From Verrucomicrobiota bacterium (GTDB lineage: Bacteria; Auribacterota; JABMQX01; JAFGEW01): 64,000 bases of DNA. The stretch lies in NCBI GenBank assembly GCA_016931415.1, contig JAFGEW010000029.1:1-64000 (forward strand), read 5' to 3'. The stretch's first letter is position 1. Every line of letters begins with the position of its first letter. This document shows, one piece after another, positions 2,841-59,833 of the stretch. Both the position numbers and the translations under genes were made by a program. Under the pieces are notes generated by a model, which searched no databases, had not been told where the DNA came from, and saw nothing but the letters and a program-made list of their open reading frames with translations.

Positions 2841-4073
2841 CTAGCGCGCCGAGGGACCTTTGGCGGAAGGGCCCGCCTCCCCGGCCCCTGGGCCGGCCTT
2901 GTGGAAGTGTGTGCGCTTGAGCATCAGGCAGAGCGGGATGCCGGCCAGCACGATCAGGCCGCCGAGCACGAAGCCGTTCTCGAACCCCAGCACCTCGGCC
3001 CGGTGCAGAATGCCCTGCGCCGACAGCGCCACCGCCTTGACCTGCTCGGTCGGCAGCATGCCGCGCACGGCGCTGAAGTCGACGGCCGACACATGGCGCG
3101 TGAACCGCGCGAACGTCTCAGACTGCGGGCTCATCAGCTCGCCGACGTGCACGCCGTGACGGTGGATGGCGTTGGTGACGTACGTGTTGAGCAACGCGAT
3201 GCCGAACGAGCCGCCCACGCTCTGCGCCACGTTGAGGAAGCTCGACGCCGTGGCCACTTTGTCGCGCGGCACGGCGTTGAGCGCCGCGGTGAGCAGCGGC
3301 GCCATCATGAACGCCAGCCCCATGCCGCGCACGACCTGCGGCGCGATGATCATCGCCTGGCTCGAATACGGATCGAGATAGCCGTACGCGAGCAGCGAGA
3401 GGCCCGTCACGGCCGTGCCCAACACGACGAGGTTGCGCGGGCCGTAGCGGTCGGCCAGCCGGCCGGCAAACGGCATGGAGATGCCCACGGCCACCGCCCC
3501 CGGCATCATGGTCAAACCCGTACGGACGGTCGTATAGCCGACGAGGTTCTGCAGAAAGATCGGCAGAAGGAATACGCCGCCGAACAGACCGACCGCACGA
3601 AACACGGCCAGGAGCATGCTCAGCGTGAAGTTTCGGTAGCGGAACAGCCGCAGGTCCAGCAGGGGATGCCGGACGGTGCGCTCGACGGCCAAGAACATGA
3701 CGAACCCGATGACGGTGAACACCAGGCAGGTGTGGATGTAAGCTGAATCCCATCCCTTCTGCTGCCCCTTGGAGAGCGCGAGGAGCCCGCTAATCAGCGC
3801 CATGGTGATAAACGTGAATCCCCAGACGTCGAACGGGATGCGCCTGCGGCCCTCGAGCGACTCCGGGCGCATCACGGTCATGCCGAGAAGCAGCGCCATC
3901 GCGCCGATCGGCAGGTTGACCGAGAAGATTGCGCGCCAACTGAACCAGTCGGTCAGGTACCCGCCCAGCGTCGGTCCCAGCGCGGGCGCCACCATGATGC
4001 CCGTGCCCCAGATCCCCAGCGCCCGCCCGCGCTCGTGCGGCTCGAACAGGTCGGCCACAATCGCCGTCCCCAC
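2841..4073 (-). pseudogene. EmrB/QacA-type MFS drug transporter, 5'-truncated
   Basis: The 410 residues match the DHA2 (14-TM) family from transmembrane segment ~4 onward: the family's motif region reads GPTLGGYLTDWFSWRAIF followed by SVNLPIGA. The first ~100-110 residues are missing. In the same frame, a TGA stands six codons before the first usable GTG, and upstream sequence has no MFS similarity. Family members normally have ~500-530 residues. The break coincides with the left end (CGCCAGCAC, 4092-4100) of the inserted ECF-like operon, and the matching emrA remnant lies on the other side of it (8771-8925). A shortened product could still be made, but it lacks the first helices, so I call it a broken gene. 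Confidence 0.75.
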
Positions 4074-4100
4074 CGGCTGGGCGAGGCTTCACGCCAGCAC

Positions 4101-4392
4101 GGGGGCAATGCTCGCCCATGGTCCATAGGCTTGTGCTGTTGACGGTCGGCGCACGCTAGTGCTCGCCAACTCAGGCCTTCCTAGCGACAGAAAGCGTGTT
4201 GCGGTCGAGACCAGTCTGCGCTATGGTACCGCAGCAGCAGCAGCAGCAGGAGTCCTGCGAGGGTCGCAATGCAGAGCCGGCTCAGGCGTGACCTCCGAGG
4301 ATACGGAACGGCCGCTCGGCAGTGTGTAGGTGTCCGCCCTGTCATTATGGGCCAGAACTGCAGGTGCCTCGCCCACAGTTGGAGGAAGTCAC
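4101..4392. other. Leader region of the ECF-like operon
   Basis: About 290 bases without a convincing gene. It holds a CAG/GCA trinucleotide run (~4230-4250) and must contain the operon promoter, but I see no clear -35/-10 pair. The reading frame open from 4330 is only the upstream extension of the next gene; a GGAGG at ~4380-4386 supports the 4393 start instead. Confidence 0.4.
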
Positions 4393-4956
4393 ATGAGGAA
4401 GCTCGTGAAGGAGTTCGTCGCGTTGGGCTTCGGTGCCGTGGGCTTTGGCCTCGCTTTTGTGCTGGGTACGGCGGTGACCTCTGGCACAGGAGTTCCTCTC
4501 CTGGGCGGCGTCACGAACGGTGTTCTGGTCGCCATGGTACTCACGATCGGCCTTCTCGCGGTTGACCGCTTCGGGACTGCAGTCCAGATGTGGCTAATGT
4601 TCAGCCTATTCGCTGCGTTCACGACCACACTGGGGCCCCAGGGGTTCTACAAGATTCCGATTGCCCTGCTGGCAGGTCTACTGTGGGATGCCGTCTACTT
4701 CGGCTTCAGACGACGCACCTACGCGCTCTTCCTGGGCGCGTTCCTGGGGGTCACGAGCATAATGTTCGCGATGCTCGGTGCCCTGCGTCTGGGCCTTGGC
4801 AGGGATGCGGAGGTGGCCTTCCAGAAGTATTGGAAGGCCCTTGGTGCAATCCTCGTGATCAACCTGATCGTCACCGGTCTCGGCGTATTCCTCGGCCGCC
4901 AAGTGTACCTTACACGATTGGCCCGTCTCGAGTTATTCAAGAACTTGAAAGCATGA
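4393..4956 (+). CDS. Membrane protein, ECF-transporter S-component-like
   Basis: 187 residues, five to six predicted hydrophobic segments (for example 8-30, 38-58, 65-90, 105-130, 148-170) joined by short charged loops, the size and topology of substrate-binding (S) components of energy-coupling-factor importers. Start chosen at 4393 because GGAGG lies about 7 nt upstream. The stop overlaps the ATG of the ATPase gene (ATGA at 4953-4956), so the two are translationally coupled. Identification rests on topology plus the neighbouring double ATPase and T-like protein; the ligand is unknown. It has no Cys-rich or heme motif. Confidence 0.55.
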   Translation: MRKLVKEFVALGFGAVGFGLAFVLGTAVTSGTGVPLLGGVTNGVLVAMVLTIGLLAVDRFGTAVQMWLMFSLFAAFTTTLGPQGFYKIPIALLAGLLWDAVYFGFRRRTYALFLGAFLGVTSIMFAMLGALRLGLGRDAEVAFQKYWKALGAILVINLIVTGLGVFLGRQVYLTRLARLELFKNLKA

Positions 4957-6293
4957 CCCGCAGCGCGGATTCGGGAATGTACGAGAAGCTGAGCATCGGG
5001 GCTGGCGTGGTTGAGTGGTCCTCAGCCAGACTGGAATACGACGCACTCGGCGAGTTCGAGCCCGGCCAGCGGTACATCGTGGTCGGCTCCAACGGCTCCG
5101 GGAAGTCGACCCTTGCCAGATGCCTCTGCGGCGTGGTTCCGGAAGTCTACTTCGCATCGGTAACACTTGAGGGCTGCGTGAGCGGGCGCGATCTGCTGCC
5201 GGTTTGGCCGCGTCAGAGCGGGGAATACCCTATTGCTGTCTTGCCACAGGACGTTCGTCAGTTTCTTCTGGGAATGACGGTGCCCGAGGAGTTCGAAGTC
5301 TCCTGCGCACACTCCGGGCTGGGCAGCATTGCGCGAGACCACATCTACGACAGCTGCGGCCTGGGTTCTTTCCGCACACGGTCATGCTGGCAGCTTTCAG
5401 ATGGTGAGCGCCAACGCGTTGCCCTCGCCTGTGCACTGGCCTACGGCGCCCCTTGGCTTGTGCTCGATGAGTGGTTCTCACACCTCGACGACTGCTGGCT
5501 CCCTCGACTCGACCACCTCATCAGTGAGGTCCTGTCTGGGCGAAGCATGACCGCCATTGAGCTCACATCGCGTCCCGTGCCCGCCGGACCGCACGTAAAG
5601 TACCTACGGTCATTGGTGCGTGATCGCTGTGTTTCCTCGCCGGCGTCGGACGCCGATCGCAGCGATGCGCTCTCCCGGCTGCTGACACGCTTCGGGACCA
5701 AGAGGTCAGAACCCCGCCCGAGGATCTGCCACAACGGGAGCATCCGGCGCGGTGAGTTCCGGAAGGCGATCGAACCAGTCGAACACGAGAAGGGTCTGCT
5801 GGTCATCACGGGAGCCAATGGATCTGGCAAGAGCTCACTTCTGCGAGGGCTCAAACTCAGGGTGAAGGGTCGTCGCGCGTCTCGACCTGTCGTCGTGTTC
5901 AGTGACCCCCGCCTCCAACTGGTTGGCCACACGATATCGTCGGTTCTGAAGCAAGTCCTCATCTCCACGCGAGCAGGTGGTGTTGATGAGGCGGTTCGCC
6001 TAACAGCAGCCGCCCTTAACCTAAGAGCGGACACTGATGTCCTTGAGCTAAGCCACGGTGCAGCCAAGCTTCTCGGCGTGATCCTCGGTGTGCTTAGCCC
6101 TCTTGCAGGGCTGGCCGTCGACGAGCCCTTCGTGGCGCTGGATCGCGATGGAGAAGCTTTGGTCATGCTTGCCATCGACTATGCAGCATGCGAGCTTGGG
6201 AAGCCCGTGGTTCTGGCCAGCCCATCCCACATCGAGCACGGAAGGTTTCACGCACCGACCCAACTGCTGTCGCTCGACGGTACGAGGATGTAG
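4953..6293 (+). CDS. Fused double ABC ATPase, energy-coupling-factor type
   Basis: 446 residues with two nucleotide-binding domains. Domain 1: Walker A GSNGSGKST (Lys51), signature LSDGERQRVA (148-157), Walker B LVLDEW (~170). Domain 2: Walker A GANGSGKSS (Lys293), a degenerate signature LSHGAAK (~366) and Walker B GLAVDEP (~388). Fused ATPase pairs of this kind energise ECF-family vitamin or metal importers; the first site looks fully catalytic, the second has a weaker signature. The start overlaps the upstream stop (ATGA). The next gene begins 3 nt after the stop. A cytoplasmic, membrane-associated role is inferred. Confidence 0.85.
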   Translation: MTRSADSGMYEKLSIGAGVVEWSSARLEYDALGEFEPGQRYIVVGSNGSGKSTLARCLCGVVPEVYFASVTLEGCVSGRDLLPVWPRQSGEYPIAVLPQDVRQFLLGMTVPEEFEVSCAHSGLGSIARDHIYDSCGLGSFRTRSCWQLSDGERQRVALACALAYGAPWLVLDEWFSHLDDCWLPRLDHLISEVLSGRSMTAIELTSRPVPAGPHVKYLRSLVRDRCVSSPASDADRSDALSRLLTRFGTKRSEPRPRICHNGSIRRGEFRKAIEPVEHEKGLLVITGANGSGKSSLLRGLKLRVKGRRASRPVVVFSDPRLQLVGHTISSVLKQVLISTRAGGVDEAVRLTAAALNLRADTDVLELSHGAAKLLGVILGVLSPLAGLAVDEPFVALDRDGEALVMLAIDYAACELGKPVVLASPSHIEHGRFHAPTQLLSLDGTRM

Positions 6294-6295
6294 CT

Positions 6296-6982
6296 ATGGT
6301 TCCTATGCGCCGCCGCTACTCCTACATCCCCGCAATGCTGATACCTCTCGCGACCACCGCATTCGCCATCGAGACCCACTGCAAAGTGGCGTGGACCGCA
6401 GGCCTTGCAGTCTTGGTAGCTGTCTCCCTGGTTGTTGTTCTCAGTCATAGGCGTGGCTTCCTGCAGTTCCGAGCAGTGTTCCTGTCGATGTATTGCGCTC
6501 TCTTCCTTCTGGGCCTGGCTGGAGTCTGGGTCCTTCCCCGCGGTGCGTGCACGTTTGCCGCCCGCACCGCAGTGCTTGGACTCGGCATCTCGCCTCTGCT
6601 CATCCCAGGTATTGGTTCCCGCATCTGTCGGGCTGCTGGAAGCCTGAGACACGCGAGGGATCCCGGCGTCTGCGAAGGGGTCTCGCTCTTGATCACACAG
6701 GTGCCTCTGCAGGCGGCGGAGGCCTGGGAGGCGTTCCGTCATCCTCTTACGCTACCCTCCAAGACGATGCGACTGCTCGCCATCCTGCGTGGGGACATCG
6801 TCATCGGGCCCATATATGCCTTTGTCCGATTGATGCATCGTCTTGCTGCCGCGACCATAGCCAGGCGGTTTACTCTGCGAAGCTATCACCCTGCGGTGCA
6901 AGTATCTTGCATCGAGACTACGGTCTATACGACCAGTATAGGATTACTCCTGTGTCTAGCTGCTGCTCCCCTCTACTCGTGA
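6296..6982 (+). CDS. Membrane protein, ECF-transporter T-component-like
   Basis: 228 residues, with hydrophobic segments in the first third (~12-30, 34-52, 60-80), a more polar centre, and a last segment at ~205-225. This layout, with an internal AATIARRFTLR stretch reminiscent of the Ala-Arg coupling helices of EcfT/CbiQ proteins, fits the transmembrane coupling subunit. The start at 6296 follows the ATPase stop by 2 nt. The stop overlaps the next gene's start (GTGA). Sequence similarity to EcfT is low, so the assignment depends heavily on operon context. Confidence 0.55.
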   Translation: MVPMRRRYSYIPAMLIPLATTAFAIETHCKVAWTAGLAVLVAVSLVVVLSHRRGFLQFRAVFLSMYCALFLLGLAGVWVLPRGACTFAARTAVLGLGISPLLIPGIGSRICRAAGSLRHARDPGVCEGVSLLITQVPLQAAEAWEAFRHPLTLPSKTMRLLAILRGDIVIGPIYAFVRLMHRLAAATIARRFTLRSYHPAVQVSCIETTVYTTSIGLLLCLAAAPLYS

Positions 6983-8034
6983 GCGCCCCGACCCAAGAAA
7001 CCTGCCGCGTCGGACATGTAGTCACAAGCAGATACGTGCCATCAGAATCCAACCTGCGTGCGGCGGGGAACACCCTGAATGCCGGGATCGCATCTTACGT
7101 GTGTGAAGCGCTCTGTCGGGGATGGATTATCAGGGACCCCATCCAGGTCCCCTCCGCCGCGCTTGATGCGCTGATAGACAGCATCCTTGGCCAGATGTTG
7201 CTGCACGACTCCGTGGCTGTCTGGCGCTGGGAGAAGCGCCCCTCTAGACCGGATTACCTCTATCCGCCGGACTGGGACGACACATGCAAGGCAATCGATG
7301 CGATCAGGGCCTATGAGGTCCTCACCGGTCAGTCGCTCGATGTTCCGCTACCGACCAGTAAGTGGCTCGCTCAGGAACTGAAGGCGTCCTTTCACGTGTC
7401 ACCAGTCGCGGGACAGGACTCGACACGCCCTTGCCGGAACCAGCTGGCGTTGTTCATGTTTCTTGCAGGCCGAGATGAGAAGCCGAACAACACAGAGGAC
7501 ATCATGGTCACCGCAGTCACGCTACGTACTGTGTTGCGCTTCTACAGAGACGTTGCCATGGAGCTCGAAGGGGAGTTACTGTCTCTGGGAGAACGCCTGC
7601 TTGAGGTAGCATGCTGGGGGCTGCTAGACGGCATTCGCTTCTCCGAAGTATCGCGCTGCTACTACTCCTGGGGGCACTTTCTCCTCATTCTTCACGAGAT
7701 TGGCGAGCTGCTCCCGTTTCTGAGACCGCGGATCACAGAGCAATGCTCGATCTACCTCCGAGGGAGGCTCTATTCTTCTCTTCTTGATGATAACATTCGC
7801 AGCCACCTTGCGCAGGATGAGGCGTGCTATGCGGCCTTCCTGGCTCGCCTAGTAGCTCCGGAGATCGAGCCCGTGCTCGTGTCACACGCACGGCGTCTTG
7901 GACAGGCGGAGTCTCCCCAAGTCATGTACCGGCACCGGCGGCTGGGTCATATGTACGGTGCCCCAGCCTGGACCTACTTGCTTTATCGTCTCCTAGCCAC
8001 CTCAGATGCTGGAGGTCTCGAGGCCGATGTGTAG
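6979..8034 (+). CDS. Terpenoid cyclase / prenyltransferase alpha-alpha toroid-like protein
   Basis: 351 residues, soluble. Starts at GTG 6979, overlapping the previous stop (GTGA), which argues for coupling. The segment at ~80-115 reads AVWRWEKRPSRPDYLYPPDW followed by DDTCKAIDAI, matching the hallmark of the squalene/hopene cyclase and prenyltransferase repeat fold, in which a DDT motif sits in an alpha-alpha barrel. A second helix-rich half (SWGHFLLILHEIGELL) follows. Length is short of a full class II cyclase (~600+), so it may be a one-barrel enzyme acting on an isoprenoid, or a binding protein. Its place in a transporter operon is unusual. Confidence 0.55.
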   Translation: MSAPTQETCRVGHVVTSRYVPSESNLRAAGNTLNAGIASYVCEALCRGWIIRDPIQVPSAALDALIDSILGQMLLHDSVAVWRWEKRPSRPDYLYPPDWDDTCKAIDAIRAYEVLTGQSLDVPLPTSKWLAQELKASFHVSPVAGQDSTRPCRNQLALFMFLAGRDEKPNNTEDIMVTAVTLRTVLRFYRDVAMELEGELLSLGERLLEVACWGLLDGIRFSEVSRCYYSWGHFLLILHEIGELLPFLRPRITEQCSIYLRGRLYSSLLDDNIRSHLAQDEACYAAFLARLVAPEIEPVLVSHARRLGQAESPQVMYRHRRLGHMYGAPAWTYLLYRLLATSDAGGLEADV

Positions 8035-8752
8035 GCTCACTATCTTCGGCGTGATAGCCGCCATGGTTTACGTCTTGGGTGTGATCGAGAACGCCGGATA
8101 CATGACGCAGTCCTATGAGAGAGGCCTTGCCGTCTTCGCCGAGAGTGGCCCAACACGCGCGCCAGTCAAAGGACTAGGATACGTCATCCTTGCTATGGGC
8201 ACTGTGCTGGCATCTCGCCTCTACCTCCAGGCTTGGGCCGTTGACGAGATGCGCAGTTTCCGTCGCGCTCGACGGAAAACGAGCACAGGACGCAGAGTCC
8301 TTGACTACGTGCTCCGTCTTGTGTGGGTTGGCGGGGTCGTCTGGCTGCCACAAGCGTATGCTGTCGCAGCCGGTGCGGCATTTGACCAGACAGCGAGCAT
8401 GCACCTATACCTTTTCGTCCTGATGGCGTCTGTATTCGCTTGGGATCTAACGATGCGGCCGATGATCTTTGGGTACACCAAGAGGGATCGGAAGGACCTG
8501 GTCAGGAATTGGCTTGCGCTGGATGCGGTTATGACAACCACCCTTGGGTTGGCGTGGCTGTCACTTGCTTTCGTGCCAACCAGCCCCCTCGGCAACTGGG
8601 GCATTGGCGTTGCGCTCGTCTCGATTCAGACCGCCTTCGTCGTTAGCCTCGTTCAGCTCGTGATGTGGGCAAAGCAGATTTTGCAGAGCCTCCGTTCCGG
8701 GTACCCCAGAGCAGCCGACGGCGCCGCGCAGAGACTGGTGCATGAAGAGTGA
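8027..8752 (+). CDS. Integral membrane protein of the ECF-like operon
   Basis: 241 residues with about six hydrophobic segments (~5-22, 48-68, 92-118, 128-148, 168-190, 195-222). Start at ATG 8027, overlapping the previous stop, with GGAGG 12 nt upstream; an in-frame ATG at 8006 is possible. I do not recognise the family. As the last gene of a coupled five-gene operon it is likely part of the same transport or lipid-modification unit. Its stop lies 10 nt before the island's right inverted repeat. Confidence 0.6.
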   Translation: MCRLTIFGVIAAMVYVLGVIENAGYMTQSYERGLAVFAESGPTRAPVKGLGYVILAMGTVLASRLYLQAWAVDEMRSFRRARRKTSTGRRVLDYVLRLVWVGGVVWLPQAYAVAAGAAFDQTASMHLYLFVLMASVFAWDLTMRPMIFGYTKRDRKDLVRNWLALDAVMTTTLGLAWLSLAFVPTSPLGNWGIGVALVSIQTAFVVSLVQLVMWAKQILQSLRSGYPRAADGAAQRLVHEE

Positions 8753-8770
8753 TCTCGTCTTGTGCTGGCG

Positions 8771-8925
8771 CCACCTTGATATAGGTGCCGCTCACGCCCT
8801 CGGCCGGAATGAGGCTGAACTGCGAGTTGGCCGCCCGCAGCATGCTCGTCACCCGCCCGGTAAGCCGAACGTTCGGGTAGGCGTCAATCGTCACGACCGC
8901 CTCGTCGCCGAGACGCGCCCGCACC
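8771..8925 (-). pseudogene. EmrA (HlyD-family membrane fusion protein) C-terminal remnant
   Basis: The minus strand encodes about 50 residues including GDEAVVTIDAYPNVRLTG and SQFSLIPAEGVSGTYIKV, the conserved region near the C-terminus of EmrA-type membrane fusion proteins. Both ends are cut: the left end at the island repeat, the right end where the plus strand begins to encode the split zinc-ribbon protein (~8922). EmrA works with EmrB as a drug efflux pair, and the emrB remnant at 2841-4073 is in the same orientation, so the two were once neighbours. Confidence 0.75.
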
Positions 8926-9150
8926 TGCTCGAGGAGACCACCGACCGCCTCGTGCTCAAGGAACGCCTGCGCGGCACGGGCCAACGGCCCAACGCCGACG
9001 AGCGGATGCGCCTGATCGCCGAGACGTTCCACGTGCTCGCCCAGCATACTCAACAACGATTCTCGCGGCAGGCACGCCACGTCGATCCGCTGGCGATGTC
9101 GGCGCTCCTGTGTTCATTCGGCCTCACCGTGGCCTTCTTCGCCGTGGGGT
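8922..9150 (+). pseudogene. Zinc-ribbon membrane protein family, middle fragment
   Basis: Plus-strand frame reads HLLEETTDRLVLKERL, then DERMRLIAETFH and a hydrophobic helix (LAMSALLCSFGLTVAFFAVG). These align with the same positions of the intact paralogues at 12112-12921 and 12937-13740. The N-terminal CxxC region is gone, replaced by the emrA remnant, and similarity stops at ~9150. The C-terminal piece reappears at 11853-12035, so one gene has been split by the intervening two-gene module. Confidence 0.72.
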
Positions 9151-9301
9151 CAATGGCCGAGAAGTGCGGAGGAGTGCAATTGAGTTCTGGACAGTCCATA
9201 GATCTCTTGCCATGATTCCTGTGTCGTTGTTGGGCCTTCGACAGAACGGGAGTGACTAGACACGGGTGTCTCCATTGTGTTCGACCAACAACTGAGGCAC
9301 C

Positions 9302-10765
9302 ATGGCTAAGGCAAAGAACCCAACCACCCTGTCAGGACACCTCAGAATCGACTCAGCCAAGCTCAGCGAGCTGGGCGTTCTTGATGTGACCTTGGGGGTC
9401 GACATACCGCTATTCATTGATCCCCTGCTTCTGCCAAGAAGCGCCCATGCCGAGATGAGCCAACTGGGCGCACGCCAGTACCGGCACCACTTCGAGCAGG
9501 TGATTGAGTTCTTGGCAAGAACTCAGCAGTCTGACGATGTGGCCTGGAGGACCGCGAGGAGGCTACTAGAGTTCCACGAGATCCGCGGAACCTGCCTGGG
9601 CTACGGCGCCGCATCCATTCAAGGAAGCGGGTTCGGCACAGAACTGACGAACCGGATACTGCGGGTGGGCAAGCAGATCGTTGACCTCGGTATACGCGAC
9701 CCCGACCTGTTTCCGGCGATGGCTCTATTTGAGGCCGACATCGGGCCAGATCGTATCAGCGACATGACGACGAACGTCATAGCCAGAGCGCTAGTCGCTT
9801 TCAACGACCGGATCCTCGGCGAACTAGGGGTTGAAGGCAAGCCTTTCGGAATCAAGGGCTCCAAAGCGCGATTTCTGGAGAACTCCCTCCAAACCCGGCC
9901 AACGCCAGTGATTCTTGTGCCCGCAGACATCCTTCGAAGGTTGCCCATCGCTCGTGATTGGGATGACGTTGCATCTGCTGCTGAGCAGAACCAACTCCTT
10001 CGCAACCGCGTAAACGAACACATTGGAGAGCTTTGGGCTCAGAAGACGAAGCGTGACAAAGCGCGCCTTCGGGGCCAGGCACTGGCCAGCCAGGAGGCCT
10101 TCCAGACGCTCCTTGATGCCCTGCACGAGGTGGCGCCATCACCATATGACGTCGACCGTGACGCAGAGGGCTTGGTCAGATGGGCAACGAGTGCAAGAGC
10201 CTTCGCCAGCCGCTTCCCTCTAGACCTCCAGACACACAAGACGCCGGCCAGGCTCGACGACGTGCGGAGTCTGGTCCACAAGATAGTGGACAGATTCGGC
10301 CACCTCGTCGAGCATAATGGACTCAACAAAGAGCTCTACAGAGACGGTGGCCGACCCAAGCACGAGTCCACAGCACAACGGTTGTTCTTCGCCATCGCCT
10401 TCTGCTACTGCGAGGCAAACAACGTGGACATCTCCCCAGAACTGGACACCGGAAGCGGGAAGGTCGACTTCAAGCTTTCTTCGGGGTCCGACAGCAGAGT
10501 CCTCGTTGAGATCAAGCTCTCGGCAAGCCAGCGACTGATTCACGGATATGAGACTCAACTTGAGATCTACAAGGAAGCCCAGGAGACAATGGGGGCCTTC
10601 TATGTTGTTGTTGATGTGGGAAAGATGGGAGGCAAGCTCAAGCGTCTTCAGGAATTGCGCAACGAACGCCTGCGACGAGCGGAGCCTGCCTCGGAGCTGG
10701 TTGTTATTGACGGGATACTGAAACCACCTGCAAGCAAACGGCGTGAATCGAACACGAGGACGTGA
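9302..10765 (+). CDS. PD-(D/E)XK nuclease-domain protein
   Basis: 487 residues. The C-terminal part carries a PD-(D/E)XK nuclease signature: an acidic strand GKVDFKL (Asp389) followed by VLVEIKLS (Glu403, Lys405), preceded by the helix HESTAQRLFFAIAF. The N-terminal ~340 residues (starting with DVTLGVDIPLFIDP after a short lead) form a conserved domain I do not recognise. No signal peptide or membrane segment. It is the first gene of a two-gene insertion, 171 nt before the DUF4062 gene. The RBS is weak (TGAGGC). A defence or restriction-like role is inferred from the nuclease fold and setting. Confidence 0.7.
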   Translation: MAKAKNPTTLSGHLRIDSAKLSELGVLDVTLGVDIPLFIDPLLLPRSAHAEMSQLGARQYRHHFEQVIEFLARTQQSDDVAWRTARRLLEFHEIRGTCLGYGAASIQGSGFGTELTNRILRVGKQIVDLGIRDPDLFPAMALFEADIGPDRISDMTTNVIARALVAFNDRILGELGVEGKPFGIKGSKARFLENSLQTRPTPVILVPADILRRLPIARDWDDVASAAEQNQLLRNRVNEHIGELWAQKTKRDKARLRGQALASQEAFQTLLDALHEVAPSPYDVDRDAEGLVRWATSARAFASRFPLDLQTHKTPARLDDVRSLVHKIVDRFGHLVEHNGLNKELYRDGGRPKHESTAQRLFFAIAFCYCEANNVDISPELDTGSGKVDFKLSSGSDSRVLVEIKLSASQRLIHGYETQLEIYKEAQETMGAFYVVVDVGKMGGKLKRLQELRNERLRRAEPASELVVIDGILKPPASKRRESNTRT

Positions 10766-10936
10766 ATCTGCGGTGGGCGAGCAGCGCTGGCACCATGCAC
10801 GCGGATTCGTCTTGCGGAGGTGCTCCGGATCCTGACAATCGCGCGCTATAGACGAGGATTCAATACATCTGCTGGCTCTTCGGCAGCCGGCTTGACAGAC
10901 GTGCTTGGTCGGTCGAGCACCACCAAGGAGGCGGGC

Positions 10937-11845
10937 ATGGCGTACGAAGCTAGGGTGTTCCAGGTGGTCATTGCTTCTCCGTCCGACGTCATCAGGGAAA
11001 GGGAGATCTTCAGGGACGTTGTGTACGAATGGAACGCCGTCCATTCGCGGAAAGCAGGCATCGTTTTGCTCCCCGCTGGCTGGGAGACTCACGCATCTCC
11101 AGAAACGGGGGTGCATCCCCAGGAGGCGATCCACCGTCAAGTCATCGACAAGTCGGACATGCTCGTGGCCGTCTTCTGGACGACCCTTGGCAGTCCCACG
11201 ACCGAAGCCGAGAGCGGCACGGTGAGCGAGATAAGGAGAGCCCACTCTCAACGCAAGCGTGTCATGATCTACTTTTCGAGCCAAGCCCTTCCGTCTGACG
11301 TTGACACGGACAAGCTCTCCCAAGTGCGGGCTTTCAAGAAGCGCTTGGGAGACCAGGCGCTCTACAGCGAGTACAGCAGTCTTGACGACTTCCGTGCGAA
11401 GCTATCGCGTGACTTGGCGCGGATGATCCAGGAGCAGAAGAGGTCGGGATCACCAACCCCAACGACTAGCGCAACCAGTGAGCCGACCCTACTCGCTCCT
11501 GACCCGGCGTGGGCGCTTGCGGGTCAGACCATCGACCTCTCACCGGAGGCCATTAGGCTTCTCGTCGAAGCCTCCGAAGATGGTCATGGAACCATACTGA
11601 AGAGTCGGACCCGTGCCGGACTCAATGTGCAGACGAACGGCAAGAGACTTGCAGACACAGGCAATGCAAGATCGGAGACGAAGTGGTCGTCAGCGCTGGA
11701 CAAGCTCTACGACCTGAGATTGCTGAGCAGGAACCCTGAGGGAACCGTGTACAGGCTCACGGCAGACGGCTACGACTTCGCCGATTCCTTTCGAGACCAG
11801 AAAGACGAGTCAACACAGGGGGACTCGACCGAGCCGCCGACCTGA
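10937..11845 (+). CDS. DUF4062 domain protein with C-terminal winged-helix-like region
   Basis: 302 residues. Start at 10937 is fixed by AAGGAGG 5-11 nt upstream; the frame is open further up but lacks a signal. Residues 1-~165 match DUF4062 (VFQVVIASPSDVIREREIF, then SDMLVAVFWTTLGSPT), a TIR/nucleoside-deoxyribosyltransferase-like fold found at the N-terminus of many bacterial STAND and conflict proteins. A low-complexity Ser/Thr/Pro linker (~180-195) leads to residues ~205-290, which look like a winged helix (SALDKLYDLRLLSRNPEG). Probable effector or sensor partner of the upstream nuclease-fold protein. Confidence 0.72.
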   Translation: MAYEARVFQVVIASPSDVIREREIFRDVVYEWNAVHSRKAGIVLLPAGWETHASPETGVHPQEAIHRQVIDKSDMLVAVFWTTLGSPTTEAESGTVSEIRRAHSQRKRVMIYFSSQALPSDVDTDKLSQVRAFKKRLGDQALYSEYSSLDDFRAKLSRDLARMIQEQKRSGSPTPTTSATSEPTLLAPDPAWALAGQTIDLSPEAIRLLVEASEDGHGTILKSRTRAGLNVQTNGKRLADTGNARSETKWSSALDKLYDLRLLSRNPEGTVYRLTADGYDFADSFRDQKDESTQGDSTEPPT

Positions 11846-11852
11846 TCATGCG

Positions 11853-12035
11853 GGGCAAACCCTCGTCAAAGCGCTCGCCCCCCTCCAGCCGACGCGGGAC
11901 GAGCTGGCTGGCATGTTCGAGCGTCTGCGAGACCGTCGCCTCCACATCGGCGAGAAGCTCAAGCCGGAATGGATCCTCGACGCGCTGCGACCCACCACGC
12001 TCACGAGCGCGCGCGACTCGTTCCCCCGCCGCTAG
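11853..12035 (+). pseudogene. Zinc-ribbon membrane protein family, C-terminal fragment
   Basis: Sixty codons ending in TAG read LVKALAPLQPTRDEL, then LRDRRLHIGEKLKPEWI, which align with the C-terminal helices of the paralogues at 12112 and 12937 (ARSLAPLQPNRAEL, RPEWIME). There is no start codon with a ribosome site. It completes the fragment at 8922-9150. Confidence 0.75.
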
Positions 12036-12111: not shown

Positions 12112-12921
12112 ATGATTCTCGTGTGGGGTACTCGCAATATCCGCCGGCATCGCGGCTACGTGGCCGACTTCTGCGCCGTCTGCCGCGCGATCCGGCCCTT
12201 CCAGGTCAGCGACATCAAGCTCGCCCATCATTTCTTCTTCGTCCCCATCACGGCGGGCACGACCACCGGCCAGATGCGCACCTGCACCGTGTGCGGCCAG
12301 CAGGCCTTCCCTGAACCCGACACGTACACCGACTTCGTCGACGACGCCCACGCCGACATCGACACGCTCGTGCAGAGAACAAACCCGACGCTCTTCGACG
12401 ACCAAACCGACCGCATGCTGCTCGAGGAGAAGCTCAAGCAGTTCCCCGACCAGATCACGGCCGGCGAGCGCACCGCCCTGCTCGTCGAGCCATTCATGGC
12501 ACTCTCGGGCCAGGTCGAGCGCCGCTTCGCGCCCGGCGGGTGCGCCAACGTGCTCGGCTCGCTCGCGTTGGTCGTGGCCCTGTTCCTCGCCTGCCTGTGG
12601 ATCGTCTACAGCGACGAGACCACCGGCGGCATGTACGCGCTCGTCACCGCCGGCGGCGTGGTCGGGGCCCTGCTGCTCATCTACGCGCTCTGGACCTTCG
12701 CCACCTCGAGCCGCCGCTACATGAACGGCCGTGTCGTGCCCCTGCTCGCCCGGGCCCTCGTCCCCCTCAAGCCGACCGAGTCCGAGCTGACCGAGATCCT
12801 CGCCACGCTCAAGGCCGACGGCCACAAGATCGCCAAGAAGCTCAAGGCCCGCTGGATCATGAACGAGCTGGACTCCGCTGACATACGCGCGAACCAGAGC
12901 AGTTACGCAGCAGAAGAATGA
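12112..12921 (+). CDS. Zinc-ribbon, two-TM membrane protein (paralogue A)
   Basis: 269 residues. Two CxxC pairs (FCAVCR at ~21-24 and CTVCGQ at ~60-63) form a probable zinc ribbon, followed by a helical region (TDRMLLEEKLKQFP), two membrane helices (~145-167 and ~178-200) and a conserved C-terminal tail (LKARWIMNEL). It is paralogous to the next gene and to the split gene at 8922/11853. Function unknown; the topology (cytosolic zinc ribbon, membrane hairpin, cytosolic tail) is typical of small envelope sensors or scaffold proteins. The following gene begins 15 nt after its stop. Confidence 0.72.
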   Translation: MILVWGTRNIRRHRGYVADFCAVCRAIRPFQVSDIKLAHHFFFVPITAGTTTGQMRTCTVCGQQAFPEPDTYTDFVDDAHADIDTLVQRTNPTLFDDQTDRMLLEEKLKQFPDQITAGERTALLVEPFMALSGQVERRFAPGGCANVLGSLALVVALFLACLWIVYSDETTGGMYALVTAGGVVGALLLIYALWTFATSSRRYMNGRVVPLLARALVPLKPTESELTEILATLKADGHKIAKKLKARWIMNELDSADIRANQSSYAAEE

Positions 12922-12936
12922 CGCGGAGACAGACAC

Positions 12937-13740
12937 ATGCTGTTCGATGCTGCCACAGGCAACGTTCCATACACCATCGGGCACGTGGCCGAGTTCTGCG
13001 TCTTCTGTAGGAGGATCCAGCCGTTCATCGTCAAGTCGGTCAAGGAAATGACGTTCGTCCTCTTCATGCCCGTCGCTGTCGGCAAGGAGCTGTCACGAAC
13101 GCGCCGTTGCCTCGGCTGCGGTGCGTGGCGGCGGCTCGACGCCTTCTCGTACAGCACGCCCGCCGTGCTGGCCGGCGCCAGCATTTGCGAGCTGATCGCC
13201 CAGACGAATCCCGGACTATGCGAGGAGCATGCCGAACGCCTCGCGCTCGAAGAGCGGCTGCAAGCGTCGCCGGCCAAGCTCAGCGCCGACGAGCGCCGAC
13301 GCCTGATCGCCGAGCCGTTCCACGAGGCCTCGCGCATCCTCGACGACCGGCTGCGCTGTCGCCGCAGCCTGAGGCTGCCCGGCTGGCTCGCGCTCCTGGG
13401 CGCCATCCTGCTCGGTTTCGTCTACCTCGTTGTCGGCCCCATCGGCCGCCCGCCGAGCCAGCGCGTATCGTGGCTCTCTATTCTGTTCGCCGCTCTCACG
13501 GCTGGCGCCGGCATCGCCGCTTTCGTCCTGCTTTGCTTCCCCGTCCGGCTATACATGAGGACACTGACACGTCTCATCGCCCGCTCACTCGCGCCCCTTC
13601 AGCCCAACCGCGCCGAGCTCGTCGCCACGCTCGACACCCTCCGCGAGCGCAATCACAGGCTGGCCCGCGACCTGCGCCCGGAATGGATCATGGAAGCGAT
13701 GCTACCGCTCGGGGATGAGGCGTCCGGGCAACCACATTGA
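12937..13740 (+). CDS. Zinc-ribbon, two-TM membrane protein (paralogue B)
   Basis: 267 residues with the same plan as its upstream neighbour: CVFC at ~21-24, CLGC at ~60-63, helical LALEERLQASPAKLSADE, membrane helices at ~147-167 and ~183-205, and the C-terminal ARSLAPLQPNRAEL ... RPEWIMEAM. Identity to paralogue A is moderate, so the duplication is not recent. Likely co-transcribed with it. Family not recognised. Confidence 0.72.
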   Translation: MLFDAATGNVPYTIGHVAEFCVFCRRIQPFIVKSVKEMTFVLFMPVAVGKELSRTRRCLGCGAWRRLDAFSYSTPAVLAGASICELIAQTNPGLCEEHAERLALEERLQASPAKLSADERRRLIAEPFHEASRILDDRLRCRRSLRLPGWLALLGAILLGFVYLVVGPIGRPPSQRVSWLSILFAALTAGAGIAAFVLLCFPVRLYMRTLTRLIARSLAPLQPNRAELVATLDTLRERNHRLARDLRPEWIMEAMLPLGDEASGQPH

Positions 13741-38874: not shown

Positions 38875-40080
38875 ATGCCCCGTCAGTCCATCGACGAACA
38901 CAACGTCGAGACGCGTGAGGTCTGGAAACGGCTCTGGGCCGGCAACCCGATCCGCGTGCCGGTCACGCTCGGGATCGGCATCCGCTACTCGATCGACAAT
39001 CCCGAGGTGAACCCGAACGGCTACACCTTCGAGCAGTACACGCGCGAGCCTGACGTGATGCTCAAGCTCCAGCTCGCCGCCGCCAAGTGGATGCGTCACA
39101 ACGCCAACTGGTACCACGACACCGAGGTCGGTCCGCCTGAGAAGGAGTGGGCCGTCTACATCGACTACCAGAACTTCTACGAAGCGGCGTGGTTCGGCTG
39201 CCCGCTGTACTTCGCCGAGGGCCAGCCGCCCGACACGCGGCCCATCCTCGCCGATGAAGCGAAGAAGAACATGCTTTTCGACCGCGGCATCCCCGACCCG
39301 CTCAACGACGGCGCGATGGGCGACATCCGCCGCCACTACGAACGGTGGAAGACCAAGCTGCGCACGTTCACGTTCGAGGGCAAGCCGGTGCGCTGCACGG
39401 GCATCAGCGGCCTCGGCACCGACGGGCCGCTCGTGGTCGCCATCAACCTGCGTGGCGCCGAGTTCCTGACCGACCTCTACCTCGACCCCGACTGGGCGCA
39501 GCAGCTTCTCACGTACATCGTGGACGCCACCATCGTGCGTATCGAGGCGTGGCGCAAGTTCCTCGGGCCCAACCTGCCGCCTGACTGGTTCACGCAGCCT
39601 GAGATGGGCCTCAAGTGGGGCTTCGGCGACGACAGCATTGAGCTGCTCAGTGTGGACGCGTACAAGGAGCTCATCCTCCCGCACCACAAGCGGCTCTTCG
39701 AGCACTTCGGCGGCGGCCCGCCGAATGCCGGCGGCGGACCGAACTTCATCCACCTGTGCGGCGACGTCCAGCGCCTGCTGCCGACGATCCGCGACGAGCT
39801 CAACGTGCGCAGCATCGACACCGGTTTCCCGATCCGGTGGGAGACACTGCGCGACGAGCTCGGCGACGACGTCATGGTCTGGGGCGGCGTGCCTGTCGCG
39901 CTGCTCAAGGACGGCACGCCCGACGAGGTGGCCGCCGAGACACGCCGCATCCTGGCAACAAACATCATGCGCGGGGGCCGCTTTATCATGCGCGAAGCGA
40001 ACAACCTAGCCCCCGGCACCCCGCTCGAGAACCTGCGCGCCATGTACGAGACAACGAAGGAGTTGGGGCGGTACACCTAA
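38875..40080 (+). CDS. Uroporphyrinogen decarboxylase-family protein
   Basis: 401 residues from ATG 38875 (AGGAGG 8 nt upstream). Contains the URO-D/MtaA-type TIM barrel: LGIGIRYSIDN, PVRCTGISGLGTDGP, FGDDSIELLSVDAYKELILP, FIHLCGDVQRLLP and a late VMVWGGVPVALLKDG with NIMRGGRFIMREANNLAPGT. Members of this branch are corrinoid/zinc methyltransferases as often as heme enzymes; FIHLCGD supplies His/Cys for zinc. No heme genes adjoin. Its stop overlaps the convergent methyltransferase gene by 4 nt. Confidence 0.85.
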   Translation: MPRQSIDEHNVETREVWKRLWAGNPIRVPVTLGIGIRYSIDNPEVNPNGYTFEQYTREPDVMLKLQLAAAKWMRHNANWYHDTEVGPPEKEWAVYIDYQNFYEAAWFGCPLYFAEGQPPDTRPILADEAKKNMLFDRGIPDPLNDGAMGDIRRHYERWKTKLRTFTFEGKPVRCTGISGLGTDGPLVVAINLRGAEFLTDLYLDPDWAQQLLTYIVDATIVRIEAWRKFLGPNLPPDWFTQPEMGLKWGFGDDSIELLSVDAYKELILPHHKRLFEHFGGGPPNAGGGPNFIHLCGDVQRLLPTIRDELNVRSIDTGFPIRWETLRDELGDDVMVWGGVPVALLKDGTPDEVAAETRRILATNIMRGGRFIMREANNLAPGTPLENLRAMYETTKELGRYT

Positions 40081-40817
40081 CGCGGCTTGCGGGCGACGAC
40101 GATCATGCGGGGCGAGGAGCGCGAGTAGGCATCGCCCGTCCAGGAGCCGTGGATGGCGTCGAACTCGAGGCCGACGCGCTCGAACAGCCTTCGGTACTGC
40201 GCGGGTGTATAGAAGCGCACGTGCATCGGACAGACAGCCTGCCGGCGGCCGCGACGAAGGGTCCAAACCGCCTCAACCCGCTCGTAGCGCCGGTTCCAGC
40301 GGCATCGCTGCGTTACCGTGCCGGCGGGCCTCCCGGGAGCGGCGGGCAAGGGAGTCGTCACCTTAGCGACGAAGTGGCGCAGCACGCGCTCGCGATTGGC
40401 CGTGTCGACGAGCAGCTTCCCACCGGGCCGCAATGCACGCGAGAAACGGCCCAGCACGTCAAGATTCTCGGCCTCGCTGAAGTACCCGAAGCTCGTGAAC
40501 CAGTTAACCACGGCGTGGAATTCCTCTCTGAAATCCAACTCGCGCATATCACCAACGAGGAATGTGCCCAAGAGGCCTTCTTTGCGGAAGCGACGCTTGG
40601 CGCGGTTGGTGAACTTCGAGCGCAGGTCCACGCCCGTCACCTCGATGCCGAGCTTGGCCATGGCGAGCGACGTGCGGCCCGCGCCACACGGCACGTCGAG
40701 CAGACGCTGTCCCTTGCGCAACCCGAGCGCTCGCCTGATGAACCGTGCCTGCTCGACTGGCATGTCATCGGTCTTGAGCCACAGGTCGTCGTCGAAGTGC
40801 CTGTACCAGTCGTCCAT
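40077..40817 (-). CDS. Class I SAM methyltransferase (tandem copy 3)
   Basis: 246 residues. Motif I RLLDVPCGAGRTSLAMAKLG (~38), VTGVDLRSKFTNRAKRRFRK, GDMRELDFREEFHAVVNWFT and GKLLVDTANRERVLRHF are shared, in order, with the two genes upstream. N-terminus MPVEQARFIRRALGLRKGQR is also shared. Likely a 'methyltransferase domain 25'-type small-molecule enzyme. Last of three tandem paralogues reading right to left; its stop overlaps the URO-D family gene. Confidence 0.87.
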   Translation of the reverse strand: MDDWYRHFDDDLWLKTDDMPVEQARFIRRALGLRKGQRLLDVPCGAGRTSLAMAKLGIEVTGVDLRSKFTNRAKRRFRKEGLLGTFLVGDMRELDFREEFHAVVNWFTSFGYFSEAENLDVLGRFSRALRPGGKLLVDTANRERVLRHFVAKVTTPLPAAPGRPAGTVTQRCRWNRRYERVEAVWTLRRGRRQAVCPMHVRFYTPAQYRRLFERVGLEFDAIHGSWTGDAYSRSSPRMIVVARKPR

Positions 40818-40823
40818 GTCATG

Positions 40824-41594
40824 TCACCTCCCGCTCTGCTTCGGCTTGCGGCCAACAACCACGATTGCCGGCGACGACGGAGTGTATGGCTCACCCAAAG
40901 CGGACCCGTAGAGCGCCTCGAACTCGAGTCCGGCCCGCCTGAACAGCGTTTTGAACTGCCCCGGCGTATACCAGCGCATCGAGAGCCGTTGACTGCCGGG
41001 CTCGCCATCGACATCAAGAGCCCACGTGCCTTCGACTCGCTCGAGTCTGTGGTTCCACCGGTTCCGGATCACCACGATGTCTCGTCCGCGGCGCCCGACT
41101 TCACGCAACGGTACGCGCCTCTCCTTGAGAAAATGCCGCAGACAACGTTCGCGATTGGCCTGCTGGATCAGGACACGGCCACCTGGCCGCACGGCGCGGG
41201 CGAAGCGCCGCAGCACGTCGAGATTGGTCGCATCGTCGAAGTACCCGAAGCTGCCGAACCAGTTGACAACGCCATCGAACTCCCCATCGACATCCAGCTC
41301 GCGCATGTCGCCGACAAGGAACGTGCCCACCAGTCCAGCCTTGCGGAAGCGGCGCTTGGCGCGGTTGGTGAACTTCGAGCGCAGATCAAGACCCCTCACC
41401 TCAACGCCGAGCTTCGCCAGCGCGAGCGACGTGCGCCCCGCGCCGCACGGCACGTCGAGCACGCGCTGCCCGCCGGACCGCCGCGATCCGGAGCGCAGGC
41501 CGAGCGCCCGCTTGATGAAGCGCGCCTCCTCGACGGGCATCTCGTTGTCCAGCAACCAGAACCGGTCGTTGAAATGCAGACACCAATCCTTCAT
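40824..41594 (-). CDS. Class I SAM methyltransferase (tandem copy 2)
   Basis: 256 residues; motif I RVLDVPCGAGRTSLALAKLG, EVRGLDLRSKFTNRAKRRFR and FDGVVNWFGSFGYFDDATN. It differs from its neighbours by an SGSRRSGGQ insertion near residue 33. The gap to copy 3 is 6 nt and to copy 1 15 nt, so the trio is one operon. Substrate unknown; divergence in the C-terminal cap (DVDGEPGSQRLSMRWYTPG) suggests different substrates. Confidence 0.87.
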   Translation of the reverse strand: MKDWCLHFNDRFWLLDNEMPVEEARFIKRALGLRSGSRRSGGQRVLDVPCGAGRTSLALAKLGVEVRGLDLRSKFTNRAKRRFRKAGLVGTFLVGDMRELDVDGEFDGVVNWFGSFGYFDDATNLDVLRRFARAVRPGGRVLIQQANRERCLRHFLKERRVPLREVGRRGRDIVVIRNRWNHRLERVEGTWALDVDGEPGSQRLSMRWYTPGQFKTLFRRAGLEFEALYGSALGEPYTPSSPAIVVVGRKPKQSGR

Positions 41595-41609
41595 CTGGAA
41601 GTCCCTCCA

Positions 41610-42362
41610 CTACTTCGGCTTGCGGCCGACGACAATGAGACGGCGCGAGGTCCGTGAGAAGGCCTCGCCGGTCCACGAACCGTAGATGCCCTCGAAAGCG
41701 AGACCGACGCGCTCGAACAGCTTCCGGCATTGCGCGGGCGTGTAGAGGCGCATGTGCATCGGACTGACGATCTCCCGCCGACCGCGCCGAAGAGCCCATA
41801 CGCTCTCGATCCGCTGCAGGCGCGGATTCCAGCGATGGCGTCTCGAGAAAGAGCCAACCCGCTTACCGCCTGCAGTGGTCACGGGGATCGCCTCGCGGGC
41901 AATGAAGCGGCGGAGGGTGAACTCGCGACTACGTGTATCGATGAGCACCCGCCCACCGGGCCGCACGGCACGCGCGAAACGGCGCAGCACGTCGAGATTC
42001 GTCGCCTCGTCGAAATAGCCAAAGCTGCCGCACCAGTTGACAAGGCCATCGAATCCCTCGCTGAGATCGAGCTGGCGCATGTCGCCGGTAAGAAACGTGC
42101 CCGAGATCCCCTCTTGGCGGAACCGCCGCTTGGCGCGAGAGACAAACTTGGAACGCAGTTCGACGCCGGTCACCTCAATGCCAAGTTTCGCCAGCGCCAG
42201 CGACGTGCGTCCCGCGCCGCACGGCACGTCGAGCACGCGCTGGCCTTTGCGCATGCCGAGCGCGCGCTTGATGAATTGCGCCTGCTCGACGGGCATGTCG
42301 TTACTCAGCAGCCAAAATCGGTCGTCGAAGTCGTCAATCCAGTCCTTTCGTTGCGCACCCAT
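41610..42362 (-). CDS. Class I SAM methyltransferase (tandem copy 1)
   Basis: 250 residues from ATG 42362 (GGGAGG 7 nt upstream, inside a longer frame). Same architecture as copies 2 and 3 (RVLDVPCGAGRTSLALAKLG, GVELRSKFVSRAKRRFRQE, FDGLVNWCGSFGYFDEATN). First gene of the operon, 64 nt below an intrinsic terminator that would lie in its leader if the promoter is upstream of 42452. Confidence 0.87.
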   Translation of the reverse strand: MGAQRKDWIDDFDDRFWLLSNDMPVEQAQFIKRALGMRKGQRVLDVPCGAGRTSLALAKLGIEVTGVELRSKFVSRAKRRFRQEGISGTFLTGDMRQLDLSEGFDGLVNWCGSFGYFDEATNLDVLRRFARAVRPGGRVLIDTRSREFTLRRFIAREAIPVTTAGGKRVGSFSRRHRWNPRLQRIESVWALRRGRREIVSPMHMRLYTPAQCRKLFERVGLAFEGIYGSWTGEAFSRTSRRLIVVGRKPK

Positions 42363-42414
42363 GAGCCCGCCTCCCTGCTTACTCAGGTTGTACTTGAACC
42401 ACTCTCCTCTGTTG

Positions 42415-42452
42415 AGCAACAAAAAAACCCACCGCCCGTCGGGCGGTGGGTT
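42415..42452 (-). terminator. Intrinsic terminator in the leader of the methyltransferase trio
   Basis: On the minus strand, AACCCACCGCCC / GGGCGGTGGGTT forms a 12-bp stem with a two-base loop, followed by TTTTTTTGTTG, a textbook intrinsic terminator. It could end transcription from 42639-43409, or act as an attenuator for the three genes downstream. Confidence 0.85.
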
Positions 42453-57586: not shown

Positions 57587-57879
57587 CGTCCCTCGCGTCA
57601 TAGTACATCAATAACTCCGCTCCGGCTTTGCGCCGTGCGCGGCATGATCCTGCAGACCTTGTCTCAAGTCAAGGATGGTCCGCGTTGGATGCTGTCCTGG
57701 GCGTACTTGAGCCGGCAAGAGGTGCTTGACACCCAGAACAGCGCGCGTCAACATCTGCTGGCGTTGGGCGAATGCTTGTAGCTGCGTTGGCAGCGCCGGG
57801 CAGTTCGAGCATAGTACCGCCGACTGTGGGGTGGACGCGGAGTCTGTCACCTAGAGACCAAGAGAGATAGGGGCCACCT
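57587..57879. other. Intergenic region before the PIN module
   Basis: About 290 bases. Both strands have short open frames (for example 57608-57850 minus) without ribosome sites or recognisable domains. It may contain the left boundary of the PIN island; no repeat is visible. Confidence 0.3.
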
Positions 57880-58662
57880 ATGGGCAGTCCTCAACCCGTT
57901 CGCGAAGACCATGCAAGGGTCTCTCGAAAGGTCTACTGCCTCTTCGATGCCAGCGCCATTGCGGCGTACTACCTTCCCCAGTCCCACAAGAACCGGAAGG
58001 TGCACGAGCATGCGACCATGATCATTGAATCGGTACGCTCAGGCGCCACAGATCACTTTCTCTACATCCCCAACTTCTGCATTGCCGAGGTATTTGGTGT
58101 CTTCGCAAAGTATGCATTCTGTCGCTGGAGCATGAAAGGCACGATTGACGGCCGCGTCTACGAATCCCTTCGTAGCCAGTTCCAGAAAGACATCCACAAC
58201 GCGGCCCTACTGTATCACTACGAACTGGCTCGGTACCACGTTTTGGCGATCGGAATGGTTGCCCCAATAGACTACTACTTCCAGGTCACACGTCGCCGGA
58301 AGACCAAGTCAAAGCCGAAGCCCGCGGGAGCGTTCGACCAACTCATAGTGGCAATGGGCATTCATCTCACCAAGATCCACGGTCCTGGAAATGTCGTCAT
58401 CATCACAGCAGATCACCGCCTCTCAAAAGTCGTGGAACGCTGTCGCAAGCTTGTTTCGGCCAGTGCCTGGAAGAAACTGCATCTGGACGAGGTGGAGCGT
58501 TTCGTGGGCATTCCCTTCACACCGGAGAGCTTCCCGTTGGTGCTACACCTACCTACTGCCACGAGGACGACTTACACAGAAGTGTTCGGCACATGGCCCT
58601 TGCCGCAGAACAAGAAGTACAAGAAGCCTTACCACCTCAGAAACCAAAACAGACGGACATAG
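57880..58662 (+). CDS. PIN-domain protein
   Basis: 260 residues. The PIN pattern is in order: LFDASAIAAYYLP (first Asp, ~23), FCIAEVFGVFAKYAF (Glu), AGAFDQLIVAMGIHL (Asp) and VVIITADHRLSKV (Asp). Such domains cut RNA. The C-terminal ~60 residues extend beyond the fold. Unlike a VapC toxin, it is long and no small antitoxin gene precedes it. AGGGG is near the start. Followed 113 nt later by two coupled small membrane proteins. Confidence 0.8.
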   Translation: MGSPQPVREDHARVSRKVYCLFDASAIAAYYLPQSHKNRKVHEHATMIIESVRSGATDHFLYIPNFCIAEVFGVFAKYAFCRWSMKGTIDGRVYESLRSQFQKDIHNAALLYHYELARYHVLAIGMVAPIDYYFQVTRRRKTKSKPKPAGAFDQLIVAMGIHLTKIHGPGNVVIITADHRLSKVVERCRKLVSASAWKKLHLDEVERFVGIPFTPESFPLVLHLPTATRTTYTEVFGTWPLPQNKKYKKPYHLRNQNRRT

Positions 58663-58775
58663 ACACCTCCCCAATAGACCATACATCACCTGGCTGACGT
58701 GTATGCTCGGATGGCGCGATGTCAGAACACGCTCAGAGCCTTCACGTTCGGTGGGGCGGTGAAGAGGATGACACG

Positions 58776-59363
58776 ATGACGCCTCAAGAGTGGCAAGCAT
58801 TACTCTGCTGGACGTTCAGCACAATCGCACAGACGCTGGCAGGTGGCTTCGGGATCCTCGCAGTCCTCGTCGTTTTCCGCTTGCAGAGCGCTGAGAACCA
58901 GATCGTTGATCACGCGAGAATCCTGCCTTATTTCCTAAGGCCTGCTGAAACACAGGAATGGCTGAACCGCCTGAGAGACGGGGAGCTATCCGCGTTCCTT
59001 GACTGGTTCGGAAAGGAGAGCCCCCGTAAGAATATCTCGAGGCAGGACAATGAAACGGTTGTGTCATCAGCGACAATCATCTCGTATCTCGGATCCGTGA
59101 CCAAGAAGTCCCTTATGCGCCTGAAGGTCTCTCTCTGCCTAACCGCCGCCTCTATTGGAGGGTGCCTCATCCTCCTGTCACTCTCCAACGTATTAGCAGC
59201 ATCATCGGTGGTATCGGTGGTGGCATTGTCCGTCACCACGTTATTGGCGATCATCTGCCTTCTTGCATATGTCCAGATCACTCTTGCCACACTAGCCGCG
59301 AGAGGGACAGTGATAGTCGAAAAGCCAAGGCCCGCAGATCGCAGCAAGGGAAATGAGCCATGA
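58776..59363 (+). CDS. Small membrane protein A of the PIN module
   Basis: 195 residues from ATG 58776 (GAAGAGG upstream). N-terminal membrane helix (TLAGGFGILAVLVVFRLQ), a soluble segment of ~90 residues, then a hairpin of two helices near the C-terminus (LTAASIGGCLILLSLSNVL, ALSVTTLLAIICLLAYVQ). Stop overlaps the next start (ATGA). No family recognised. Confidence 0.68.
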   Translation: MTPQEWQALLCWTFSTIAQTLAGGFGILAVLVVFRLQSAENQIVDHARILPYFLRPAETQEWLNRLRDGELSAFLDWFGKESPRKNISRQDNETVVSSATIISYLGSVTKKSLMRLKVSLCLTAASIGGCLILLSLSNVLAASSVVSVVALSVTTLLAIICLLAYVQITLATLAARGTVIVEKPRPADRSKGNEP

Positions 59364-59833
59364 CTCAGTTCCTGGTTCCACTGGTGTCTGGCGTTGGCGG
59401 CACACTCATCGGATGCCTCTTGACATGGCACCTCATGACAAGGACTGTCCGAAACGAAGCAAGGCGAAAAGTCCTCGTGATGGCCGCAGAAGCCCTCCAG
59501 GATTACCGGGTGGCCTATGCCCAATGGTATGCCGAGTACTTATCACCGGAAGCGCAGGCTGTGGAGGACTGGGCGAAGCCACCAACGGGTAAACCCGATC
59601 CGGTTTACCTCCAGCTCATGAGCGCCGTCGACACAGGACGTGGGCGCCTTCGAGTGATAAACGGAGCGCTGTACGCCCATTTCCGTAAGACCGACGTCAA
59701 ACCGCTCTGCACCGAGATGTTGCGCGTGCTGACCATGAGTGCCGGCGACAAGCCGGCCGATTGCCGGAAGGTAGATGAGATCGTGGAGAAAGCACACGAC
59801 CTGATACCCGACATGATCCGCCGTTTCTTCTAA
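59360..59833 (+). CDS. Small membrane-anchored protein B of the PIN module
   Basis: 157 residues; an N-terminal helix (FLVPLVSGVGGTLIGCLLTW) anchors a cytoplasmic helical domain (EALQDYRVAYAQWYAEYLSP, VINGALYAHFRKTDVKPL). Begins inside the stop of protein A. Unknown function; coupling suggests that A and B act as a complex. Confidence 0.68.
   Translation: MTQFLVPLVSGVGGTLIGCLLTWHLMTRTVRNEARRKVLVMAAEALQDYRVAYAQWYAEYLSPEAQAVEDWAKPPTGKPDPVYLQLMSAVDTGRGRLRVINGALYAHFRKTDVKPLCTEMLRVLTMSAGDKPADCRKVDEIVEKAHDLIPDMIRRFF

Follow-up and report, generated by a model that had tools for sequence, protein, structure and literature searches.

EmrA and EmrB (profiles TIGR00998 and TIGR00711) are known as a tripartite drug-efflux pair, and importers of the YkoEDC type, which belong to the ECF transporters, are encoded in the gene order S, fused A-A, T. 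On illegitimate recombination, the third system with which the present locus is compared, our literature search returned general papers only, and no paper was found on an ECF operon that includes a cyclase-like gene.

Here we describe a locus in which foreign DNA stands between the remnants of emrA and emrB. The window, i.e. the whole stretch of DNA that was analysed, covers the first 64 kb of a contig of 129.8 kb, from a genome of 4.06 Mb in 134 contigs with 4.5% contamination. At the emrA-emrB junction it contains the following features.

2841..4079, minus strand: emrB remnant, a DHA2-family MFS permease without ~117 N-terminal residues (TIGR00711, L066 alignment)
4080..8771, no strand: insert 1, 4,692 bp, 60.3% GC (alignment to L066, composition)
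8772..8921, minus strand: emrA remnant, ~50 codons (~150 bp), cut at both ends (L066 EmrA, TIGR00998)

The TIGR00711 match lies on the minus strand with an E of 1e-88, opens at profile position 112 and stops at 4079, and the TIGR00998 match, on the same strand, begins at 8772 and covers only profile positions ~254–305. Scanning public genomes with the EmrB remnant gave an intact comparator, L066, a 3.4-kb contig (record title: 'Deltaproteobacteria bacterium isolate B46_G9') in which emrA and emrB are contiguous and overlapping. The EmrB remnant is 66% identical to its L066 counterpart, with the alignment starting at L066 residue 119 and running from 4079 downward in the window and from 825 onward in L066. 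For emrA, 8921–8772 corresponds to 194–343 of L066 (50 codons, 60% identity, E 5.6e-18; EmrA residues 65–114). Between the aligned parts L066 has 481 bp, made up of 44 codons from the end of emrA and codons 1–118 of emrB, and in the window their place is taken by the whole of insert 1. No relocated or inverted copy of the lost 481 bp was found anywhere in the window; in the genome search a single EmrB-like match was reported, and no EmrA above the family cut-off.

Because the two genes adjoin not only in L066 but also in the more distantly related L004 and L005, the polarity of the insertion is clear, and as a sequence arrangement the insertion is real. An earlier note on this DNA had supposed that foreign DNA entered the junction of two normally adjoining genes with loss of the flanking coding sequence, and had suggested looking for an intact emrAB among relatives; L066, which lacks insert 1 and could be aligned at both junctions, bears this out. 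The losses named there (the emrA 3' end and the emrB 5' end) are both found, but they were understated, since the 5' part of emrA beyond 8921 is gone as well, and of the two edges the one at EmrA was about right (8772, for 8771 claimed), whereas the one at EmrB lies at 4079 and not at 4091. The frame of the emrB remnant is still open (410 codons), which suggests a recent truncation or a remnant still in use.

Insert 1 carries five genes that overlap or nearly do so, all on the plus strand.

4393..4956, plus strand: probable ECF substrate-binding (S) component, a membrane protein of 187 aa, distantly YkoE-like (BLASTP)
4953..6293, plus strand: fused double ABC ATPase, 446 aa (PF00005, ABC_tran, E 1.4e-23, two matched stretches)
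6296..6982, plus strand: probable ECF T component, a membrane protein of 228 aa (named only from its position after the fused ATPase; hydrophobic segments)
6979..8034, plus strand: soluble orphan, 351 aa, carrying the motif PPDWDDT (no family match; overlaps the preceding gene)
8027..8752, plus strand: orphan multi-helix membrane protein, 241 aa (no family match)

The ATPase gene, overlapping the gene before it by 4 bp, encodes the two ABC ATPase domains that belong to an ECF importer, with two Walker A motifs (GSNGSGKST and GANGSGKSS), and the ECF_ATPase and CbiO models are among its top matches, below their cut-offs. The likeness of the 4393–4956 protein to YkoE comes from a BLASTP comparison with a PF09819 protein of L064 (30% over 99 aa, E 2e-5 for this single comparison), and searched directly against PF09819 it gave no match. 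Its neighbour at 6296–6982 gave no CbiQ or T-component match at E up to 1 and no significant family match, so that a T component of the CbiQ-type family is not recognised in the operon. Membership in the ECF group is not established, because the S protein misses PF09819 and the T protein is without a family match; by resemblance, the operon probably works like an ECF importer. We infer the T-component assignment and a transport function, in which the S protein would bind the substrate and the T protein would couple it to the fused ATPase pair in an uptake of the ABC/ECF type.

The two orphan genes probably act in the same pathway as the transporter. The PPDWDDT motif of the 6979–8034 protein may recall alpha/alpha folds of the class II terpene-cyclase type, and no homologue of this protein was found in 384 genomes, plasmids, genome_contigs and viral contigs. 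For the 8027–8752 protein, sought in the 384 genomes, only marginal matches were obtained, and its predicted structure is mostly helical at low confidence; the structure models of the two orphan proteins have a mean pLDDT of 43 and 54, too poor for a structure search. For the S and T genes as for the orphans, a search of 384 genomes each gave no convincing homologue, and the S protein is absent from the plasmids searched. The operon, with its two orphan genes beside an ECF-like transporter, is a modest lead for transport biology.

The emrA remnant directly abuts the middle fragment of a further native gene (X), and the locus is a larger mosaic than first noted, in which, as read from the sequence, a second foreign insert breaks X.

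8895..9149, plus strand: native gene X fragment, with the X middle part at ~8865/8895–9155, residues ~75–169 (37% identity, E 1.7e-9 to the 12937 gene)
~9150..11855, no strand: insert 2, ~2.7 kb, 58.2% GC, interrupting X (flanking X fragments, composition)
9302..10765, plus strand: insert 2 gene a, 487 aa, C-terminus nuclease-like by sequence reading (weak PDC-M36A match, PADLOC E 2.3e-8)
10937..11845, plus strand: insert 2 gene b, 302 aa, DUF4062-like, with a PDC-S60-like N-terminus (PADLOC E 1.4e-30)
11862..11993, plus strand: X C-terminal fragment, residues ~214–257 (43% identity, E 1e-7 to the 12937 gene)
12112..12921 and 12937..13740, plus strand: two intact tandem X paralogues in the native flank (sequence comparison)

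The second insert is recognised because the C-terminus of X reappears at 11862–11993, beyond the foreign block. The two X fragments flank it in correct order and orientation, with a loss of at most ~45 residues (up to ~135 bp) of X. Native order and strands are kept throughout (emrB', emrA', X', X'', 12112, 12937), and 378 bp separate insert 1 from insert 2. Genes a and b are candidate defence-type genes; against PF13271, gene b scores an E of 0.0013, below the family cut-off. X and the genes at 12112 and 12937 form a tandem family of three paralogues, one member of which has a weak zinc-ribbon match, and no further copies of the family were found in the genome.

Three other features were seen elsewhere in the window. 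A two-gene module on the minus strand at 43520–45402 matches the candidate defence system HEC-01 (HEC-01A E 7.6e-121, HEC-01B E 3.3e-65), a gene at 54839–55390 matches the candidate defence family PDC-S05 (E 5e-53), and at 40077–42422 (minus strand) stand three consecutive genes with similar starts, methyltransferase-like by eye and probably a tandem duplication.

Both inserts are foreign in composition, as judged against fifteen 20-kb stretches from the same genome. At 60.3% GC, insert 1 lies below the genome value of 65.4%, and among 105 background windows none is as low in GC and none as far in tetranucleotide distance; for insert 2, 0 of 195 are as extreme by either measure. The remnants resemble native DNA, as do both flanks, and the left and right flanks match each other. 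The tetranucleotide distance between the two inserts is 0.26, against 0.44 and 0.49 to the native flanks, and by this mutual closeness they may have a common source or come from a single complex event. At 57608–60150, between two genes that seem complete, a further block is low in GC (57.3%), outside the range of all background windows.

What is observed is how the genes are arranged and truncated, the foreign composition, and the replacement seen against L066; on this basis we consider it likely that the locus was formed by two or more foreign insertions and a deletion through illegitimate recombination, with no self-mobile cassette and with insert 1 as an ECF-like operon. The ancestral locus would have had emrB-emrA on the minus strand beside the divergent tandem family of X, 12112 and 12937 on the plus strand. 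Lower-GC foreign DNA would then have entered at least twice, joined independently of homology and with target DNA lost each time. Insert 1 with its five-gene operon would have taken the place of ~481 bp where emrA meets emrB, insert 2 with its two candidate defence-type genes would have replaced up to ~135 bp inside X, and a separate deletion would have fused the 3' part of emrA to the middle part of X. As to the order of events and the joining mechanism, which we infer, the route may have been micro-homology or template switching at a fork.

Illegitimate joining with deletion is preferred because a recombinase, a tRNA, room for an attC site, a target duplication and a second copy are all absent and target DNA was lost. 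No recombinase or transposase was seen among the genes of the inserts that were profile-scanned (for insert 1 the earlier note had said as much), no second copy of insert 1 was found in the genome, and no tRNA was found in the window, by which a tRNA-targeted island was rejected. An attC site is larger than 16–19 bp, and the distance from the last stop to native sequence is only 19 bp in insert 1 and ~16 bp in insert 2; the 3' space being too short for attC, an integron gene cassette was rejected too, and the pair GTTGTTGG/CCAACAAC before 9302, considered as attC, does not fit in orientation. Ku was not found, so that Ku-dependent end joining was discarded, classical bacterial end joining is unsupported and another route must be assumed. 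A caveat is that neither insert extends more than ~20 bp beyond the stop codon of its last gene, a pattern not expected from illegitimate joining, though two cases carry little weight.

A sub-case of this explanation, differing in the number of events, is that a single complex event, e.g. fork template switching with one foreign fragment, made both inserts and the emrA-X deletion. The short spacing of the inserts, their closeness in tetranucleotides and the native order preserved with gaps speak for it, but the low-GC block at 57608–60150 makes separate acquisitions plausible and no relative carries both inserts joined, and we regard a single event as possible though rather unlikely.

Quite improbable is an assembly chimera, in which different organisms or strains would have been joined at the junctions. 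The bin is fragmented and contaminated, and the composition steps at the junctions are sharp; however, insert 1 lies between the two halves of one operon and insert 2 between those of one gene, each pair in the right order and orientation, which makes an assembly error unlikely. Two random joins would each need to return to the same gene, and the compositions of the flanks match.

The earlier note had further placed a 9-bp inverted repeat precisely at the two edges and had read it as the boundary of a cassette, either mobilised in trans or brought in by a one-off event.

4092..4100, plus strand: left arm of the inverted repeat, CGCCAGCAC, judged to be chance
8762..8770, plus strand: right arm of the inverted repeat, GTGCTGGCG, judged to be chance

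Both arms are present, as the sole occurrences of CGCCAGCAC and GTGCTGGCG in the window, but they do not stand precisely at the edges: judged by the L066 alignment, similarity breaks off at 4079 and resumes at 8772, so that the start of the left arm is 13 bp further in and the end of the right arm is 2 bp away from emrA. Across the genome CGCCAGCAC occurs 135 times on the two strands (67+68), compared with 124 times (66+58) for the reversed-word control. Random pairs of window places gave an inverted match of at least 9 bp in 1.7% (±25 bp) and 4.3% (±40 bp) of trials, and an inverted or direct match in 3.2% and 9.2%, respectively. Because this frequency is that of the background and the search spanned edges and repeat types, the repeat is not evidence of a boundary element; it is a chance match with no role in the formation of the locus, and does not delimit a cassette.

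A mobile cassette with the CGCCAGCAC inverted repeat at its ends, mobilised by a recombinase in trans, would need no internal recombinase and could point to the repeat near both edges, but the word counts, the chance-level matches and the offset of the left arm go against it, the loss of 481 bp of target leaves no target duplication possible, no other copy exists, and insert 2 next door is without the 9-bp repeat; we hold it to be extremely unlikely. A transposon or IS-like cassette was likewise rejected, having terminal repeats of only 9 bp at background frequency with the left arm off the edge, no transposase or recombinase match in the scanned genes, a single copy, and no clean insertion with target-site duplication where 481 bp of target are missing. 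The one-off event fits better than mobilisation, although the locus shows two or more insertions and a deletion rather than a single event. That the separation of emrA and emrB is ancestral, with no insertion, is almost certainly wrong: no same-species strain with an empty site was found, but the pair is adjacent or overlapping in all three relatives, both genes are truncated mid-domain, and insert 1 is a composition outlier.

We consider it very unlikely that the locus reflects an undescribed, recombinase-free capture of gene blocks in this lineage, with operons ending just past the last stop, together with a new ECF-type transporter with orphan partners. If true, a capture route would repeatedly replace short native stretches with complete foreign operons, and the orphans, one of them with a terpene-cyclase-like motif, would handle the substrate. 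More generally, a short inverted repeat can be misleading when it seems to mark the edges of a block, as this locus shows.

Compared with the known systems, both EmrAB remnants keep the usual order and strand and are 60–66% identical to L066; unlike a complete EmrAB, neither a full EmrA adaptor nor a full EmrB permease is present, and because the emrB N-terminus is missing and emrA is reduced to ~50 codons, the truncated pair should not work as EmrAB. Insert 1 resembles the YkoEDC-type ECF importers in its small membrane protein distantly related to PF09819, its double ATPase of CbiO/ECF type and its T-sized membrane protein, and differs from them in that the S and T proteins fall below family cut-offs and two extra orphan genes follow. 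Under the preferred reading of at least two insertions and a deletion, the locus is a clean example of how foreign operons enter a chromosome when no mobile element can be recognised, with the polarity given by an intact relative. Like an insertion by illegitimate recombination with target deletion, it has no notable terminal repeats, target duplication or recombinase, and target DNA was lost; nothing essential differs from such insertions, of which there are two next to each other here, both disrupting native genes.
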